50,146 nt of DNA. It comes from Acidobacteriaceae bacterium. Lineage in GTDB: Bacteria; Acidobacteriota; Terriglobia; Terriglobales; Acidobacteriaceae. Below, piece after piece: positions 8,706 to 50,146 of this stretch (positions within the stretch are counted from its first letter, which is position 1; the number at the start of each line of letters is the position of its first letter). Below the pieces are notes generated by a model. It saw nothing but the letters and a program-made list of their open reading frames with translations. It was not told the origin of the DNA and searched no databases. The translations under genes and the position numbers were made by a program. The stretch covers positions 101,022 to 151,167 of the forward strand of contig PLHQ01000101.1 in NCBI GenBank assembly GCA_003138975.1, given 5' to 3'.

Positions 8706-10913
8706 ATGTACCAGGAGAAGACAGCGTTGTACCCCTCAGCCCACTTCGACCGAATGAGGACGATGGGGCTGAGCCTTGTTGTACTGACCCTAACCCTATG
8801 CGCGGTTCGGCCGGCCAATGCGGCTCTCGGACGGTTTGTTGCACACAACACACCCAGCTACGTGGCGACGGCGAAGAACCTAGGGACGGAAGATCCGTCG
8901 AAGACAATTGAGGTGAGCATCTGGCTGAACCCGCATAACCGTGGGGAGATGGATGCGCTGGCGAGGGATTTGTATGATCGCACCTCGCCCAACTACCGTC
9001 ACTGGCTGACCCGGGCACAAATTGCGGCGCGGTTTGCGCCGACGGCGGAAGAGGCAAAAACGGTGCAGGAATTTTTTGAATCGCACAACCTGAAAGTGGT
9101 GAAGGTGGGTGGCGACAATTTCTTTGTAAGGGCGCGAGGTACGGTGGGGGACGTGGAGAAGGCGTTCCAGGTACAACTCAACAATTACCAGGTGCGGGAT
9201 AAGGTCATCCGTGCCAACGCGAGCGATCCTTACGTAGAAGGAGCTGCGGGTCCGCTGGTGAAGTCGGTTTCGGGACTGGACACGGGGACTTATGAGCATC
9301 CGCTGATGGCCCGACCGACGAATTTTGGGAAGAGCGGGTCGGCTGGCGTGAAGCCAGCATTGGCGCCGCCTTCGAGTTTCTTTACTCCGGACTGCTTCGA
9401 CGGAGTAGTGACGGATGTATTCTCTAGCGACAACGACGGTTCGTTACCCATCGGGACCTACAAGGGGAATCACTTAAATCTGCAGAGCCTGACCAGCGCG
9501 GGTTGCGCTTATACGCCAGGGCCGATCCAGACTGCCTATAATCTGACGGGACTGTACGCTGAAGGATTCCAAGGGCAGGGACAGACCATTGTGATTCTCG
9601 ACTGGTGCGGGTCGCCGACCATTCAGAATGACGCGAATGCGTTCTCGGCGATGTTTGGATTGCCGCTGCTGAGTTCGTCGAACTTCAACATCATCTACAC
9701 CCCGACGCCGAGCCTGTGCGAGGCTCCCGATTCGGTGGAAATCAACATCGATGTCGAGTGGTCGCATGCCGTTGCTCCCATGGCGAACATCGACCTGGTA
9801 GTTCCGCCCTCGGCGAGCTTCCAGGATGTGAACGAGGCCGAGTACTTCGCGGTGAACTATGGGCTGGGCAACTCAGTTTCGGGCAGCTATGGTTCACCAG
9901 AATCCGAAACCCCAGCTTCGGAACTGGCGAACGAAAACCTGATTTCCGAAGTTGCGGCAATCTCGGGAATCTCCACCAACTTCTCTTCGGCAGACGACGG
10001 CGACTTTACGGTTTACGGAATTCCGGCCACTGTAAGTGCTCCGGCTGATTCGCCGTGGGCGACCGCGGTGGGTGGAGTAAGCCTGGCGTTGAAGGCGGAC
10101 AACTCAATTGCGTGGCAGGCGGGGTGGGGGAACAACGAAGTTCTGCTGACCGATGAGGGGTTTATTCCCGATCCGCCGGAGGACTTCGGGTTCTATGCTG
10201 GATCGGGCGGAGGCCAGAGCAATTGCGCCTTCCAAGAGTTCGTGGGTACTCCCCCAAACACCACCGAGGTCTGCCTGGGCGGGTTCCCCAAGCCTGCCTT
10301 CCAGAAGAGTCTGCCGGGGAAGTATCGGCAACTTCCCGATATTTCGTGGCTGGCGGACCCGTTCACGGGAGTGGCGATTCTAATCAGCGTTCCGGGGCAG
10401 CTTCCGGAACAGGTTTGGCAGGTGTGGGGCGGGACGAGCGTGGCTTGCCCGATGTTCTCCGCACTGTGGGCGATTGCCAATCAGGAAGCGGGAGTGCCTC
10501 TTGGCCAAGCCGCACAGTACTTGTATTCGTTGCCGCCGGGAGCGATCACCGATGTCGTTCCGGTTGGCTCAAAAACCAACGTGACTGCCTCGATTCGAGA
10601 GTCTACAGTGACCAATAACTATACCGCGAGTGAGGTGTTGGGCGCGGGCGGGTTCCCGCCCGGGACGTCGGCGGCGCCCGCAAAGTTTGTCAGCGCGATA
10701 TGGGACTATCCCTATTTAGATTACACAGAGTTGGTAATCTCATTCGGGACAGACTGCTCAGCGCTGCCCAGCACTGATTTCGACGGATCGCCCTGCAACA
10801 CTTCGTCTGCGCTGCACACGAAAGTGGGCTGGGATAACGTAACCGGGATGGGAACGCCGAACGGGAAAGCGTTCGCGGATGCCTTCAACCCCACAGTAGC
10901 TGCAGTGAAGTAA
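8706..10913 (+). CDS. secreted S53 family serine-carboxyl peptidase (pro-kumamolisin type)
   Basis: 735 residues. The start ATG 8706 has AGGAGG 4 nt upstream; a second ATG at 8754 begins the hydrophobic signal (LSLVVLTLTLCAVRPANA). The N-terminal ~190 residues form the activation prodomain (NPHNRGEMDALARDLYD and SPNYRHWLTRAQIAARFAPT are typical). The catalytic domain shows VEINIDVEWSHAVAP near 345 with Glu and Asp four apart, as in sedolisins. SGSYGSPE follows near 400, and GGTSVACPMFSAL near 576 carries the nucleophilic Ser. Such enzymes are acid-active extracellular endopeptidases. A strong terminator follows, so it is probably transcribed alone. Confidence 0.93.
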   Translation: MYQEKTALYPSAHFDRMRTMGLSLVVLTLTLCAVRPANAALGRFVAHNTPSYVATAKNLGTEDPSKTIEVSIWLNPHNRGEMDALARDLYDRTSPNYRHWLTRAQIAARFAPTAEEAKTVQEFFESHNLKVVKVGGDNFFVRARGTVGDVEKAFQVQLNNYQVRDKVIRANASDPYVEGAAGPLVKSVSGLDTGTYEHPLMARPTNFGKSGSAGVKPALAPPSSFFTPDCFDGVVTDVFSSDNDGSLPIGTYKGNHLNLQSLTSAGCAYTPGPIQTAYNLTGLYAEGFQGQGQTIVILDWCGSPTIQNDANAFSAMFGLPLLSSSNFNIIYTPTPSLCEAPDSVEINIDVEWSHAVAPMANIDLVVPPSASFQDVNEAEYFAVNYGLGNSVSGSYGSPESETPASELANENLISEVAAISGISTNFSSADDGDFTVYGIPATVSAPADSPWATAVGGVSLALKADNSIAWQAGWGNNEVLLTDEGFIPDPPEDFGFYAGSGGGQSNCAFQEFVGTPPNTTEVCLGGFPKPAFQKSLPGKYRQLPDISWLADPFTGVAILISVPGQLPEQVWQVWGGTSVACPMFSALWAIANQEAGVPLGQAAQYLYSLPPGAITDVVPVGSKTNVTASIRESTVTNNYTASEVLGAGGFPPGTSAAPAKFVSAIWDYPYLDYTELVISFGTDCSALPSTDFDGSPCNTSSALHTKVGWDNVTGMGTPNGKAFADAFNPTVAAVK

Positions 10914-41954: not shown

Positions 41955-41987
41955 AGGCGCGGTGCAATCCGCGGCCTTTTTTTATTT
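41955..41987 (+). terminator. rho-independent terminator after the BON gene
   Basis: AGGCGCGG / CCGCG(G)CCT with one bulged base, loop TGCAAT, then TTTTTTTATTT. It overlaps the stop end of larB on the other strand. Confidence 0.65.
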
Positions 41988-42732
41988 ACAATCGATTGAT
42001 CAACGACGCCACGTATCCCGCGCCGAATCCATTATCGATATTCACCACGCTCACATTTGAGGCGCAGGAATTCAGCATGCCGAGCAGCGCGGTCAGTCCT
42101 TTGAACGATGAGCCATATCCCACGCTGGTGGGCACCGCGATTACAGGAACGCCAACAAGTCCTCCGACCACGCTGGGCAGTGCGCCTTCCATGCCGGCGC
42201 AGACAATCACGACGCGAGCCTTCGTGAGCGCTTCCCGATTGGCTAGGAGACGATGAATCCCCGCGACGCCCACGTCATAGAAATGCTCCACAGTATTGCC
42301 CATGAGTTCGGCAGTCACGACAGCCTCTTCGGCCACAGGGATGTCGCTGGTTCCCGCCGATACTACAGCGATCGTCCCCTTACCGTAGGTGTGCGGATCA
42401 CGTTGCAGCACAATCGCACGCGCGAGTTCGCGATATTCTGCCGCGCGGACTTTTTTCTTCACTGCAGCAAACTGTTTCTTATCGGCGCGCGTCGCGAGGA
42501 TGTTGCCACCGTGCTTGGCCAATCGCGCAAAAATCTGCGCCGTATGCGACGGAGTCTTCCCCTCCCCAAGAATCACTTCGGGCATGCCTGCGCGCAGACT
42601 GCGATGATGGTCCACCTTGGCAAAACCAAGATCTTCAAAGGGCAAATGGCGCAGGCGCTCCACGGCACCGTCAGGCGAGATTTTGCCTTGGCGCACTTGC
42701 TCGAACAATTTGCGGATGGACTCGGCGTTCAC
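41986..42732 (-). CDS. larB: nickel-pincer cofactor synthesis protein LarB
   Basis: Carboxylates and hydrolyses nicotinic acid adenine dinucleotide, the first step to the nickel-pincer nucleotide of lactate racemase. 248 residues: N-terminal helical part with [28 protein letters not shown], then an AIR-carboxylase (PurE-like) domain with [55 protein letters not shown] and the final [11 protein letters not shown]. larC, larE and larA are not in the window. 19 bp behind the ChaN-like gene, same strand. Confidence 0.92.
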
Positions 42733-42751: not shown

Positions 42752-44404
42752 TCACGCGAGGTCTAGCTTAGCATCTGAGGACGGCCCTGAGTTCGAGGCG
42801 TGCGCGTCGCGGGAGGCGGAACGAACTCTTGCGATCACAGCGGTGTAGATTTTGCGGGCGACACCGGGTTCGTTAAGATGGGCTAGAAACAAACGGCGCA
42901 ATCCGCCAGGCGTCACTCGTCCCGCCAGATAGGCAGCGTAGAGCATACTTCCTAGGCGGTATCCCCAATCTTTCGCGATCGCTTCCAACTTCTCGTTATC
43001 GGCGCGGATGGCGGCCAAGGCGGCCTTTTCGCACGCAGCACGCGACAACGTGAAGGAGTTGTCCGTCTCGGGCGCCGGCCTTGCGGGATAAAGCACTCGC
43101 GAACCGAAGTAAGCCACGGCGTTTTCAATCACACGCGTATAAAACGCATCCATCGCCGCGGCCGCGTTAGTAGTTCCAAGTAAACCGTTACCGTCCGCGC
43201 CATTTACGTCAAGGCCGTGTCCATTAAGGTGCTGAGGCAAACCGCGGCAGGCGTGATGCAGAAAACGAGCGGCATCCTCGGCCGCGTGCATCAGCTGAAA
43301 TTCGCGGACGTAGAACGCATTCACCTCGGGGAAATAAGCACTGCCGCGTTCTTCCACACTGGCGAGCATGCTTGCCATTTGCTGATCCGGGATGGCTTTG
43401 CGCGAGATCAGACGGCGCAGCGCCGCATCCGAAGCGTTACCGTGAACCTCAGGCAGCATGTCGACCAGAAACTTCGGTTGCGTGCCATTGTGCGGCGAAT
43501 AGCGGTTGATCTCAAGAAAGCTGGCCAGGCTGTCAATCAAGTTGTAGATGGTAGGCGCGAAGTCAGGGCCGGTATCGCAGCGGCTCCACTGGTCAAGAAA
43601 CAGGCGGTAGCTTTCATACTTCTCCAGAGGCGTGGCGTTGAAGACGCAGAGGACGTCGTTGTTGACGCGCACTGCCTCGACCTTGTCGACGGGTTCGCCC
43701 GCCGCCCGCCAATATAACGCATCCACGTTTTGCAGGACGGTAAGAATTTTGGCCTCGGGAAGTTCCTTGTGCAGCACGCGAGGCAGATGTCCCGGAGCCA
43801 GGTGCGACTCGCCGAACAGCACAAAGATGACCGCATCGGGATGTCGCTGGCGAATCTCGGAAATCTTGGCCGCGGCATGACGATCGCGGGCGCCGATTTT
43901 CCGCAAATTTTCGCGGGGCATGCAATCCAGACCGTAGATGGCCTCGCCATGGTCACGCGCGGCAACCAGCAATTCGTGAAACGGAGGCCAATCGTATCCC
44001 CAGTCAAGATCGAAGCGGATGCGCTGCCGTAATTCGTTCTCATCAATTTCACGGCGCCACCATTCTTCGAGAATGTGCTGGTCGCGGGCAAAAATGGTTT
44101 CGACACCAAGCACCAAGCGACGGTCTCCAGCCAGGGCGCGCTGCTCGATCAGTGATGCGGCGTAGCGCTGCGCGGCGGGCAGAGCATGGTAGTCGCCGAT
44201 CAAGACGACGTCGGCTGCCTGCAGAGCATTCTGAATCTGTTGACGATCAAGAAGAGAATCGTAGTTGCCGAAGGCTTGCGAAAACTCGCGAAGATATTTG
44301 CGGCGGCCATGCGAATCCTGCGCGCGAATTTCACGCTCCACTCCCTCCAGCGCATGCAGTTCTGCCGCGCTGCGGCGAGATCGTAAATTGGCCGTAGATG
44401 CCAT
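42752..44404 (-). CDS. ChaN-like (Tiki/EreA superfamily) protein
   Basis: About 550 residues. The first ~300 hold a ChaN-type domain: [20 protein letters not shown] (His, like the GExH motif), [26 protein letters not shown] and [20 protein letters not shown] (GExH), the paired Glu/His signatures of haem- or metal-binding ChaN and of the Tiki/EreA fold. The C-terminal ~250 residues are helical with no known motif and make it about twice normal ChaN length. No signal peptide or lipobox is seen, unlike ChaN. Start uncertain: ATG 44485 would leave 20 bp to the divergent ubiX, and its extra 27 residues look like repeat, so 44404 is used. Confidence 0.75.
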
Positions 44405-44505
44405 AAAGTCAGCTTCTAGCTCCCAGCTCTTGCCTTGACTCCGGTTCGGCGACTCCCTATGCTGCAAAGTCGGGGCTGTGCTCATTTCGCCTCGCGGGAG
44501 AATCC

Positions 44506-45425: not shown

Positions 45426-46325
45426 ATGCCTTTGACCATTGAACCAGGTGATCAAATCACAACCAGATTCTCAGCGCGGTCTCTTCAGCAGCGACGACTT
45501 TTCCTGTTATCGGCCTGTGGAGTATTCCTGCTCATGGCCGCGACTGCGACTTGTGCGGCGGATGATCACAATCCTTATGCTGCCGATCCCAAAGCGGGGA
45601 AGGCGGGCGAGTATGAATTCCGAATCAACTGCGCGCTCTGCCATGGGCTCGGCGCGCACGGTGGCGGGCGCGGTCCCGACTTGACACAAGCTCAGAAAAA
45701 GCACGCGCACTCGGATGCGGAGTTGTTTCAGGTGATCAGCAACGGCATTCCGGGCACCGTCATGCCCGCGAACGGCACCAACGGCCAGGGCGTTGGCATG
45801 ACCGACGAAGAGATCTGGCAGATCATCACTTATATCCGCAGCGTCGAGGTGAAGGCCCCTGCCAAGCCCGCCGGTAGTGCAGCGCATGGCAAGGAGCTTT
45901 TCTATGGCGACGCGAACTGCTCGCTCTGCCACATGGTCGAGGGCCGGGGTGGGCGCCTGGGACCGGAACTCACCGGCGTGGGAGGATCGCGGACCCGAGA
46001 AGCCATCATCGATTCGGTGCGCAATCCCAGCCGGCGGCTGGCCTGGGGATTGACCGAGGCGACGAAAGAGTTTCCCCAGGAATACGAGACAGTTGCCGTG
46101 GTGACCGCCGACGGAAAGGAAATTAAGGGCGTGGCTCTGAACGAAGACAACTTCAGCGTGCAGATGATGGACGCGAGCGAACAGATTTTTCTGCTGGAAA
46201 AAGATGAGTTACGGTCGTTTAAGAAAACCCGGGAGTCGATGATGCCGACGTACAATGCAGACCTTTTGAGCGACAAAGATCTTGAAGACGTCGTGGCCTA
46301 CCTAGTCAGCGTGGCGGCGAAATGA
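45426..46325 (+). CDS. diheme c-type cytochrome
   Basis: 299 residues, exported (hydrophobic FLLSACGVFLLMAATATCA, cut near 45). Two haem c sites: CALCHGLGAHGGGRGPDLT (about 70) with distal Met in GTVMPANG, and CSLCHMVEGRGGRLGPELTG (about 161). The C-terminal strands (VVTADGKEIKGVALNEDNFS) resemble the haem-binding domain attached to Acidobacteria and Planctomycetes dehydrogenases. Its stop overlaps the next ATG by 4 bp, so it is the likely electron acceptor of the PQQ enzyme. Confidence 0.93.
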   Translation: MPLTIEPGDQITTRFSARSLQQRRLFLLSACGVFLLMAATATCAADDHNPYAADPKAGKAGEYEFRINCALCHGLGAHGGGRGPDLTQAQKKHAHSDAELFQVISNGIPGTVMPANGTNGQGVGMTDEEIWQIITYIRSVEVKAPAKPAGSAAHGKELFYGDANCSLCHMVEGRGGRLGPELTGVGGSRTREAIIDSVRNPSRRLAWGLTEATKEFPQEYETVAVVTADGKEIKGVALNEDNFSVQMMDASEQIFLLEKDELRSFKKTRESMMPTYNADLLSDKDLEDVVAYLVSVAAK

Positions 46326-47920
46326 GGGCTCGGAGAAGCTTCGCCGCTTTGTTCTCATTTTTGTTTGCTTGCAGCCTCTTGACCTCGCCGGTTCGTGCCC
46401 AGGTCACTTTCGAACGGCTGCTGAATTCGACGAAGGAGCCGCAAAACTGGCTGACATATTCCGGCGACTATTCTGGCCGGCGTTTCAGCCCCTTGGAGCA
46501 GATCAACACCACGAACGCGCGAAGCCTGGTGGCGAAGTGGGTGTATCAAACGGGAGCCACGGGCAAGCTCGAGACAACGCCGCTGGTGGTCGACGGCATC
46601 CTTTACGCCACGGCGCAGGATGACCGCGCGTTTGCTCTGGATGCGCGCACCGGGCGGCCCATCTGGCTGTACCAGCATCAACTGCCTGGCGATATCCGTC
46701 CGTGCTGCGGCCGGGTGAACCGCGGCCTCGCCATTCTGGGCGACAAAGCTTTCCTGGGGACACTCGACTCGCATGTGATTGCACTGGACACCAAAACCGG
46801 CAACGTGATCTGGGATGTTGTGGCCGCGGACTATCAGAAGGGATACAGCTTCACCGTCGCGCCGCTGGCCGTGAAGAACCTTGTTGTGATTGGGGTTTCC
46901 GGCGGCGAGTATGGCGTGCGAGGGTTCATCGATGCTTACGATGCCGCGACGGGCGCACGCAAGTGGCGCTTTTACACCGTGCCGGGGCCAGGCGAGCCCG
47001 GACATGAAACCTGGGAGGGTGATTCCTGGAAGATCGGCGGTGCTCCGGCGTGGAACACGGGAACCTACGACGCAGTGACCAACCAGATTTTCTGGCCCAC
47101 GGGAAATCCTTCGCCCTCGAATCGCGGGGAGGGACGCGCCGGGGACAATCTCTACAGCAATACGCTGCTGGCGCTGAATGCGGACACGGGAAAGATGAAC
47201 TGGTATTTCCAATTCACCAAGCACGACGAGCACGACTGGGATGCGACCCAAGTCCCGGTGATGATCGATTCCGGCGGCAAGCATCTGATTGCGCAGGCCA
47301 ATCGTAACGGATTCTTCTACGTGATCGATCGCGCCAGCGGCAAACTGATTTTGGCGAAGGCCTACGGCAAGACCACGTGGAGCGACAGCAGGGACGCCGA
47401 CGGGCGTCCTGTGGCGAACAAGGAAGCTTCGCCTACGCTCGAGGGGCACACGGTCTGTCCGGGAGCGCTGGGGACGACCAACTTCATGGCACCAGCGTTC
47501 AATCCGCAAAGCGCATTGTTCTACGTGACTGCTCGCGATCAGTGCGATATTTTCAGCACCGCGCCGCAGCCCTATGAAGCCGGTCATGCCTATTATGGCA
47601 GCGCTTATTTTCCGTCGGAAGAAGCGGAGCCGTATCGCGGATTTCTGAAGGCGATCGATCCCGCCACGGGAGAGATCAAATGGAAGTTCGAGCACACTTC
47701 ACCAACATGGTCGGGAGTGCTGTCAACCGCTGGAGGCCTGGTTTTCACAGGTGACGCCGAAGGAAACTTCATCGCTCTCGATGCGGTCACGGGCAAGGCA
47801 CTCTGGCATTTCCAGATGGGCGGCGCAGTCTACGCTGCGCCCATGGCCTTCGCCGTGGACGGGAAACAATACGTCGCGATCGCGGCGGGCAGCGCAGTGT
47901 ATGCGTTCGGGCCGCCATAG
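46322..47920 (+). CDS. PQQ-dependent alcohol dehydrogenase, lanthanide-type
   Basis: 532-residue periplasmic quinoprotein; signal peptide FAALFSFLFACSLLTSPVRA. Eight-bladed propeller with W-motifs such as TGRPIWLYQHQ and TGKALWHFQM. Active-site set by position: vicinal CC at 128-129 (RPCCGRVNRG), Glu196 (GVSGGEYGVRG), Asn262 (WPTGNPSPSN), catalytic Asp305 and a second Asp at 307 (HDEHDWDATQ). The Asp-x-Asp pair is the published mark of lanthanide-binding XoxF/PedH enzymes; calcium MxaF has Ala there. No haem domain is fused; the overlapping upstream cytochrome takes that role. Substrate unknown. Confidence 0.93.
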   Translation: MRARRSFAALFSFLFACSLLTSPVRAQVTFERLLNSTKEPQNWLTYSGDYSGRRFSPLEQINTTNARSLVAKWVYQTGATGKLETTPLVVDGILYATAQDDRAFALDARTGRPIWLYQHQLPGDIRPCCGRVNRGLAILGDKAFLGTLDSHVIALDTKTGNVIWDVVAADYQKGYSFTVAPLAVKNLVVIGVSGGEYGVRGFIDAYDAATGARKWRFYTVPGPGEPGHETWEGDSWKIGGAPAWNTGTYDAVTNQIFWPTGNPSPSNRGEGRAGDNLYSNTLLALNADTGKMNWYFQFTKHDEHDWDATQVPVMIDSGGKHLIAQANRNGFFYVIDRASGKLILAKAYGKTTWSDSRDADGRPVANKEASPTLEGHTVCPGALGTTNFMAPAFNPQSALFYVTARDQCDIFSTAPQPYEAGHAYYGSAYFPSEEAEPYRGFLKAIDPATGEIKWKFEHTSPTWSGVLSTAGGLVFTGDAEGNFIALDAVTGKALWHFQMGGAVYAAPMAFAVDGKQYVAIAAGSAVYAFGPP

Positions 47921-49118: not shown

Positions 49119-50146
49119 ATGAAGCAACTCACGGAAGTTCTGGAACGCGCCGCGAACCGGCGCTCATTCCTCAAGAACAGCATGGTCGCGGGAGCTGTGG
49201 CGACCGTAGGAGCTGGCATCCTGGGCAGCGGGCTACCCGCGTTCGCCGGCGAAACCAGCAATTCAAGCATTACCAAAGGAGATATTGCGATCCTTCGATT
49301 CCTCGCGGCAGCCGAACTCATTGAGGCCGATCTCTGGCAGCAATACGCTGAGCTGGGTGGTCTCACCCCTGGCCAACTCCCCGTGGAGACGGCCCCGTTC
49401 ACGCCGATGAACAGTTACCAGGCTGCTTTCATGAACCTCGATTCCGATGGTCCGCAATACATCTCCAGCAACACCCTTGATGAGCAGAGTCACGCCGAGT
49501 TTCTGAATGCTTATCTGATCTCGATAGGCGCCGAGCCCGTGGATCTGGATGCCTTCCGGACTTTGCCAAGCAGCCAGGCGACCGGAGCTCAGCAAATCGG
49601 ACGGCTTACCAACCTTACGCAGCTCAGTGTGGATACCAGCTGGTATGTTCGGTATCGCAGCAGCACCAACCCTGATTTTGGCGCCAGTTTCGCGCAAGCG
49701 CTGCCCGCGCTGTCGGCGGGGCAGCTCACGGCAATCCCCAGAACCGATGACGATTTCGGCCCTGCAAACCACGTCCAGGCAATCGCTAACACTGCGGCAT
49801 TCCACTTTGGTTTTATCGAGCAAGGCGGTTCGAGCTTGTACGCTGCGCTCAGTCAAAAGGTATCGAACTCGGAAGTCTTGAAGATCACGCTCAGCATTGG
49901 GGGCGACGAGATTGCTCACTTCCTGGAGTGGGTGGATTTTTCAGGGAATAGCGTGCAGCCGCCGATTGCTCCCTTGACAGATCCGACCAATGGGTTGACC
50001 TTCCCTAATTTTGATGTCACGATAAACCCTCTGCTTCAGACCAACCTGATCTTCCCGGTGCCGTGCGAGTTTATCAGTCCAAAATTGCCCCACTGTGCTG
50101 TGATTCGCCCTACTGCTACGGCGGGGATTGCTGCGGGAGCGGTCAA
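49119..50146 (+). CDS. Tat-exported ferritin-like domain protein (3' end cut by window)
   Basis: Open from ATG 49119 to the window edge, at least 342 residues. GAGAGGA lies 3-9 nt before the ATG. The N-terminus is a Tat signal: NRRSFLKNS then VAGAVATVGAGILGSGLPAF with an A-F-A cut near 46. A ferritin-like four-helix region follows (ILRFLAAAELIEADLWQQYA; TLDEQSHAEFLNAYLISIGA; AFHFGFIEQGGSSLYAAL; GGDEIAHFLEWVDFS) with Glu and His spaced as in the Ferritin_2 family. Export by Tat suggests it folds, perhaps with metal, before crossing. The C-terminus is missing. Confidence 0.85.
   Translation, partial: MKQLTEVLERAANRRSFLKNSMVAGAVATVGAGILGSGLPAFAGETSNSSITKGDIAILRFLAAAELIEADLWQQYAELGGLTPGQLPVETAPFTPMNSYQAAFMNLDSDGPQYISSNTLDEQSHAEFLNAYLISIGAEPVDLDAFRTLPSSQATGAQQIGRLTNLTQLSVDTSWYVRYRSSTNPDFGASFAQALPALSAGQLTAIPRTDDDFGPANHVQAIANTAAFHFGFIEQGGSSLYAALSQKVSNSEVLKITLSIGGDEIAHFLEWVDFSGNSVQPPIAPLTDPTNGLTFPNFDVTINPLLQTNLIFPVPCEFISPKLPHCAVIRPTATAGIAAGAV

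Follow-up and report, generated by a model that had tools for sequence, protein, structure and literature searches.

A gene pair for a predicted lanthanide-type PQQ dehydrogenase and an adjacent diheme cytochrome c in an Acidobacteriaceae genome

The analysed stretch of Acidobacteriaceae DNA (hereafter the window; 50,146 nucleotides, its 3' edge being the contig end) carries two overlapping genes on the forward strand. The first-pass annotation had described an overlap of 4 bp between them and had named Glu196, Asn262, Asp305, Asp307 and a vicinal cysteine pair in the dehydrogenase; the two reading frames (45426-46325 and 46322-47920), their overlap at ATGA and each of these residues could be confirmed. 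The features are given below, with dehydrogenase residues in precursor numbering and the evidence in brackets.

45426..46325, + strand: exported diheme cytochrome c, 299 aa, CxxCH at 69 and 165 (ORF, family models, motifs; export is predicted)
46322..47920, + strand: one-domain PQQ dehydrogenase, 532 aa, with a predicted rare-earth-type metal site (ORF, family models, AlphaFold2/Foldseek)
46322..46325, + strand: ATGA, 4-bp stop/start overlap of the cytochrome and dehydrogenase genes (sequence)
46703..46708, + strand: codons of the vicinal cysteines C128-C129 (residue check)
46907..46909, + strand: E196 codon, PedH Glu199 (PedH alignment, conservation in relatives, available part of PMC11845868)
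47105..47107, + strand: N262 codon, PedH Asn281 (PedH alignment, conservation in relatives, available part of PMC11845868)
47231..47242, + strand: H304-D305-W306-D307 codons, comprising the His-for-Trp exchange, the catalytic Asp and the extra Asp of predicted rare-earth sites (alignment, conservation, available part of PMC11845868)

The dehydrogenase scored 569.3 bits against TIGR03075 (PQQ-dependent dehydrogenase, methanol/ethanol family; cut-off 480.05) and 270 bits against the Pfam PQQ model (cut-off 26.7), and a signal sequence was judged by eye to be present at its N-terminus. Only the PQQ domain was recognised by the family models, in agreement with the earlier description of a single-domain enzyme. 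The cytochrome passed TIGR02603 (103.8 bits; cut-off 68.15) as well as two Pfam cytochrome c families, and its two CxxCH motifs bore out the call of a two-haem protein. The second half corresponds to the 'putative heme-binding domain' of TIGR02603, with similarity to the diheme protein 7zs0. Pairwise comparison with four orthologues (L047, L049, L050, L051), with dS near saturation, gave dN 0.08-0.15 and dS 1.1-1.9 for the enzyme, and dN 0.14-0.22 and dS 1.2-2.7 for the cytochrome. Both genes are under purifying selection, and the pair is more than a chance arrangement since dN lay far below dS for both genes in all four orthologue pairs.

The metal site was mapped by phmmer alignment to PedH and a hand count along the PedH chain. 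E196, N262, D305 and D307 fell on PedH E199, N281, D323 and D325, with a gapless alignment block around D305/D307; in the available part of PMC11845868, these same four residues are the PedH ligands in the structure with Pr3+ (6ZCW). Conservation was assessed by aligning two sets of relatives (80 and 29 sequences) together with nine reference chains. The two sets overlap slightly, L061 and L019 being identical in the first tree described below, and L068 and L022, of equal length and with the same match place, point to further overlap. The patterns that recruited the larger set did not include DxD, and one of them included the Glu. D305, D307, N262 and W231 were invariant (80/80 and 29/29 relatives), and E196 was kept in 78/80 and 29/29, with Asp instead in L101 and L104. 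The position of the second Asp was occupied by Asp in PedH and three XoxF references, Ala in two MxaF, Ser in ExaA and Thr in two type II alcohol dehydrogenase (ADH) references. By alignment to PedH and by conservation, the enzyme thus has the Glu/Asn/Asp set followed by a second Asp two residues on that is expected of the lanthanide type. The prediction of a lanthanide-type enzyme holds at the sequence level, with the PedH ligands, the invariant DxD and a PedH-like predicted fold; DxD itself is a predictor of rare-earth use only.

Further differences from the reference chains could be seen around this site. The residue before the catalytic Asp is His304 in the window enzyme and His in 60/80 and 25/29 relatives, as against Trp in 9/9 reference chains; this His-for-Trp exchange is a clade mark absent from the first-pass annotation. 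The vicinal cysteines, present at that place in all nine reference chains, were not aligned in 20/80 relatives (one, L056, being frame-broken) and 2/29, and DxD is kept without them in these 22 relatives (e.g. L089, L090, L095, L112, L120, L030 and L046). Relative to PedH, the alignment shows the loop before W231 shortened by about 16 residues.

The genome has one other quinoprotein over the PF13360 cut-off, a 728-aa type II quinohaemoprotein ADH on contig C139 (L015:6901-9087). It bears DFD, with Asp two residues after the catalytic Asp, where Thr is found in 1kv9, 1kb0, 1yiq and 8gy2. Judged by their residues, both PQQ dehydrogenases found in the genome carry the rare-earth mark. These observations bear on the possibility that the same enzyme and partner use Ca2+ in vivo or accept either metal, in which case the second Asp would allow a lanthanide without demanding one. 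The available text of PMC11996626 treats the motif as a sign of at least facultative lanthanide use, and a motif-bearing membrane glucose dehydrogenase of the E. coli type is predicted there to be metal-promiscuous. Against this, the second Asp does not vary in either set of relatives, and its presence in the other quinoprotein of the genome fits a standing rare-earth requirement; use of Ca2+ or of either metal is therefore considered unlikely.

The AlphaFold2 model of the dehydrogenase, built with 43 aligned sequences, had a mean pLDDT of 91.2 and a pTM of 0.90. The Foldseek search with this model placed PedH first, with 38% identity and a TM score of 0.92 on the query length, followed by type II ADH, XoxF, ExaA and MxaF, and PedH was also the best PDB match by sequence. 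A first tree of 46 rows was constructed from 27/80 and 8/29 relatives, the nine references, the window enzyme and the second quinoprotein of the genome; its XoxF/MxaF references were three XoxF and two MxaF, 3/5 of them partial (about 340-350 aa), and one PedH and one ExaA reference made up the ExaA/PedH side. The window enzyme and 35 relatives formed one clade (support 100/99), separate from a clade of XoxF and MxaF (100/100) and from the type II ADH (100/100). On the modest support of 87/70, the window clade is probably sister to ExaA/PedH.

This tree excluded the identity of the window enzyme as XoxF. Membership in PedH/ExaF (PQQ-ADH type 2b) was also rejected, as the enzyme stood outside the ExaA/PedH clade, and type II quinohaemoprotein ADH was dismissed because the 532-aa, PQQ-only protein has no C-terminal haem domain. 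The earlier assignment to a XoxF/PedH type stood for PedH with respect to the ligands and the nearest fold and fell for XoxF; the phylogeny with XoxF, PedH, ExaA and MxaF that had been proposed as its check gave a clade of its own, with PedH/ExaA only as the probable sister.

Comparison with known systems revealed a mixture of shared and distinct traits. The window enzyme resembles PedH/ExaF in its one domain and its four aligned metal ligands, PedH being the nearest solved structure, and differs in the identity of about 38%, the separate clade, His304 for Trp and the shorter loop. The partner of PedH is a PedF-type c550, unlike the diheme cytochrome of the window. With XoxF it shares the DxD site, the vicinal cysteines and the single domain, but XoxF sits in a clade with MxaF, and the window cytochrome is not of the XoxG type, which has a single haem. 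The type II quinohaemoprotein ADH (1kv9, 1kb0, 1yiq, 8gy2) likewise join a PQQ domain to a cytochrome c as electron outlet, and the fused relatives described below are similar to them in principle; they differ by a single, C-terminal haem domain and by Thr for the second Asp, whereas the cytochrome of the window clade is diheme and either separate or N-terminal, the reverse fusion order.

A homologue of the cytochrome was encoded as a separate upstream gene in 63/80 relatives, 51/80 with a possible 4-bp overlap; among the others of this set, 6 were fused, 1 had it downstream, 8 lacked an adjacent homologue and 2 had too little upstream sequence. In the set of 29, it was upstream in 25/29 (17/29 with a possible overlap), missing in 3/29 and cut in 1/29. 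In the fused relatives (L080, L109, L110, L115, L116 and L103), the diheme cytochrome lies in frame at the N-terminus of the dehydrogenase; both haem motifs were found in four and one in L115, while L103 is truncated where its contig stops. On a second, quick tree of 82 rows, from which the frame-broken L056 was left out, the fusion label required two changes, one for a five-member group (support 91) and one for L116 beside the split L081 (98). The N-terminal fusion thus probably arose twice, judging from this tree; two origins are likely rather than proven, because the well-supported branches alone force only one change. The vicinal cysteines were missing in 5/6 fused rows, an association that may serve as a lead only, since those five rows form one group.

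The genes around the pair were much less stable. Among the ten closest loci of the larger set, 8/10 do not keep the neighbours; L047 and L048 are the two that retain the genes resembling ChaN and UbiX. The flanking genes being unconserved, the cytochrome and the dehydrogenase form a conserved unit. These results also bear on whether operon history alone has put the cytochrome beside the enzyme, with another cytochrome c as the true acceptor. The relatives without an adjacent homologue (8/80 and 3/29) are compatible with that explanation, but the prevailing adjacency, the six fusions with two changes on the tree and the lack of conservation of other neighbours make it very unlikely. The view that the dehydrogenase has its own cytochrome was strengthened by the conserved adjacency and the gene fusions. 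In the literature searched, mostly titles and abstracts with few subscription papers, nothing was found on the pairing or fusion of this clade with a diheme cytochrome.

Other features of the region were recorded. The window encodes LarB, a nickel pincer cofactor biosynthesis protein (41986-42732, - strand; 303 bits, cut-off 175), a 577-aa protein with a ChaN-type haem-binding uptake domain (42752-44485, - strand) and a ferritin-like protein (49119-50144, + strand) that weakly matches a TAT signal and runs off the contig end. No sigma-70-like promoter was found near the pair and no Rfam RNA between 40000 and 50146; terminator-like sites numbered seven against 3.2 expected. Carriage on a plasmid was rejected, as all 590 matching plasmid records were below 60% identity.

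An alcohol or aldehyde is the most likely substrate, but none of the neighbouring genes hints at one: ten neighbour proteins in seven orthologue or relative loci gave no common theme, and a wider operon as a pointer to the substrate was discarded, its genes being neither kept nor thematically related. Polyols, sugars or other larger substrates, in place of simple alcohols and aldehydes, are a somewhat improbable choice for the PQQ/lanthanide dehydrogenase. The shorter loop before W231 could open the substrate funnel, and many acidobacterial lanthanide-type sequences are placed with sorbose dehydrogenases by tree position in the available part of PMC11996626. On the other side, the window enzyme is nearer in sequence and fold to PedH and the alcohol dehydrogenases than to the sorbose dehydrogenase 4mh1 or to 4cvb, and the neighbours in the seven loci share no common pathway.

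The reading preferred here, held at a probability of about 0.7 and based on sequence comparison, is that the two genes encode a periplasmic PQQ/lanthanide dehydrogenase and its dedicated diheme electron acceptor; the partner is read as dedicated because the cytochrome travels with the enzyme and is fused to it in some relatives. Both proteins would be exported, and the apoenzyme would bind PQQ and a light lanthanide through E196, N262, D305 and D307. The metal would polarise the PQQ carbonyl, D305 would accept the proton of the alcohol or aldehyde, and the hydride would pass to PQQ. The reduced PQQ may then deliver its two electrons singly to the diheme cytochrome and onward to the respiratory chain.

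The window genome is 98.58% complete with 3.08% contamination, and its contig C5 encodes PqqC (328 bits) and PqqE (525 bits), both over the cut-off, as well as PqqD (50.8 bits; Pfam cut-off 23.4). A PqqB match on the same contig scored 236.7 bits, under the cut-off of 245; its frame runs into masked or unknown bases (L014, about 9500-9560), which may explain the slight shortfall. Of the pqqABCDE set proposed for a genome search at first pass, C and E were sought across the whole genome; together with PqqD and the PqqB homologue they make up the PQQ genes recorded here, and no PqqA was identified. The accompanying remark that the window has no PQQ synthesis genes held for PqqC and PqqE, which had no match on its contig C215 in genome-wide searches, but the genome itself does have pqq genes; the family-library scan of window proteins covered those from about 28.5 kb onward. 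Within the genus, an orthologue at 79-90% identity was present in 20/24 other genomes (fragments only in three), and PqqC was over the cut-off in 20/24. Without regard to genome completeness, PqqC was over the cut-off in 6/10 genomes of loci of the larger set at >=74% identity, and in 0/4 genomes of loci at 54-60% identity.

The distribution was different across the phylum. In a sample of 297 genomes, PqqC was over the cut-off in 15 and matched at E <= 0.001 in 29; PqqE at E <= 1e-60 was found in the same 15 genomes, in 14 of them over the cut-off. The enzyme was matched at E <= 1e-60 in 74 genomes and at E <= 1e-150 in 41, the remaining 256 serving as the comparison for the latter. Among these 41 strong-homologue genomes, PqqC was over the cut-off in the window's own only; all 40 others (40/40) were without it, 38 of the 40 being at least 90% complete. 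As 1/41 against 14/256 is no depletion (Fisher p 0.70), carriage of the enzyme does not predict PQQ making; at the looser enzyme threshold of E <= 1e-60, PqqC was found in 8/74 against 7/223 (p 0.015). PqqU-like receptors matching the E. coli protein at E <= 1e-60 were present in 9/41 against 3/256 (p about 1e-6, kinship ignored), and at E <= 1e-40 in 9/41 against 14/256 (p 0.0015, kinship ignored). They are 26-32% identical to E. coli PqqU, apart from one 51% fragment, and their substrate is uncertain. Genomes with such a TonB receptor include G269, G277, G041, G191, G206 and G077, and the window genome had none at E <= 1e-40. Neither PqqC nor a PqqU-like receptor was found in 31/41 strong-homologue genomes. 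The available part of PMC12124388 gives PqqU in 17 Acidobacteria, 0 of them with PQQ synthesis genes, and for the others suggests diffusion or synthesis of their own.

It is not certain that the wider clade uses PQQ, because none of the 40 other strong-homologue genomes of the phylum has PqqC. This absence, with which PqqE agrees, and the 31 genomes lacking both routes would suit an enzyme that works without PQQ, namely an 'acido-empty' quinoprotein holding another cofactor in the same fold; TIGR04528 (acido-empty-quinoprotein group A) was in fact the second-best NCBIfam model of the window enzyme. Its score of 526.1 bits is nevertheless under the cut-off of 650, the PQQ-site residues are kept, and pqq genes occur in the window genome and PqqC in most of the genus, making an enzyme without PQQ highly improbable at this locus. 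The acido-empty label was accordingly rejected on the score and the pqq genes. The name of the model implies a genome without PQQ synthesis, which this genome is not, and the likeness to group A lies also in the kinship of both, within acidobacteria, to PQQ enzymes. In an alignment of 43 members, not one (0/43) matched TIGR04528 at E <= 1e-195, a threshold close to the cut-off in score, and the term 'acido-empty-quinoprotein' was not found in the literature searched.

Lanthanide enzymes in acidobacteria are already widely predicted. In the parts of the sources available, xoxF3 systems are described in acidobacteria of weathered granite (PMC10875860), XoxF in acidobacterial Gp1, Gp5 and Gp6 (PMC6784897), and up to 70 lanthanide-type PQQ dehydrogenases per genome in marine Acidobacteria and Pseudomonadales (PMC11996626); the window enzyme is therefore not a new kind. 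A broader and tentative proposal, which we hold with more doubt than belief, is that a dedicated diheme cytochrome, encoded next to the enzyme or fused to it, is what defines a large lanthanide dehydrogenase clade extending beyond Acidobacteriota. The window enzyme would be among its few PQQ-making members, and most carriers, without a known PQQ pathway, might live on PQQ released by neighbours, through importers still to be recognised in the majority of these carriers, or might fill the site with some other redox cofactor.

The main question raised by the clade is how the non-producers get their cofactor: a PQQ-making genus beside many carriers without PQQ genes asks whether PQQ is a shared soil vitamin or another cofactor takes its place. 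If the reading of a lanthanide dehydrogenase with a dedicated diheme acceptor is true, the enzyme would have a two-haem electron outlet that is directly testable through the natural gene fusions, and rare-earth metals and PQQ would matter to uncultured soil acidobacteria beyond the methanol (XoxF) setting.
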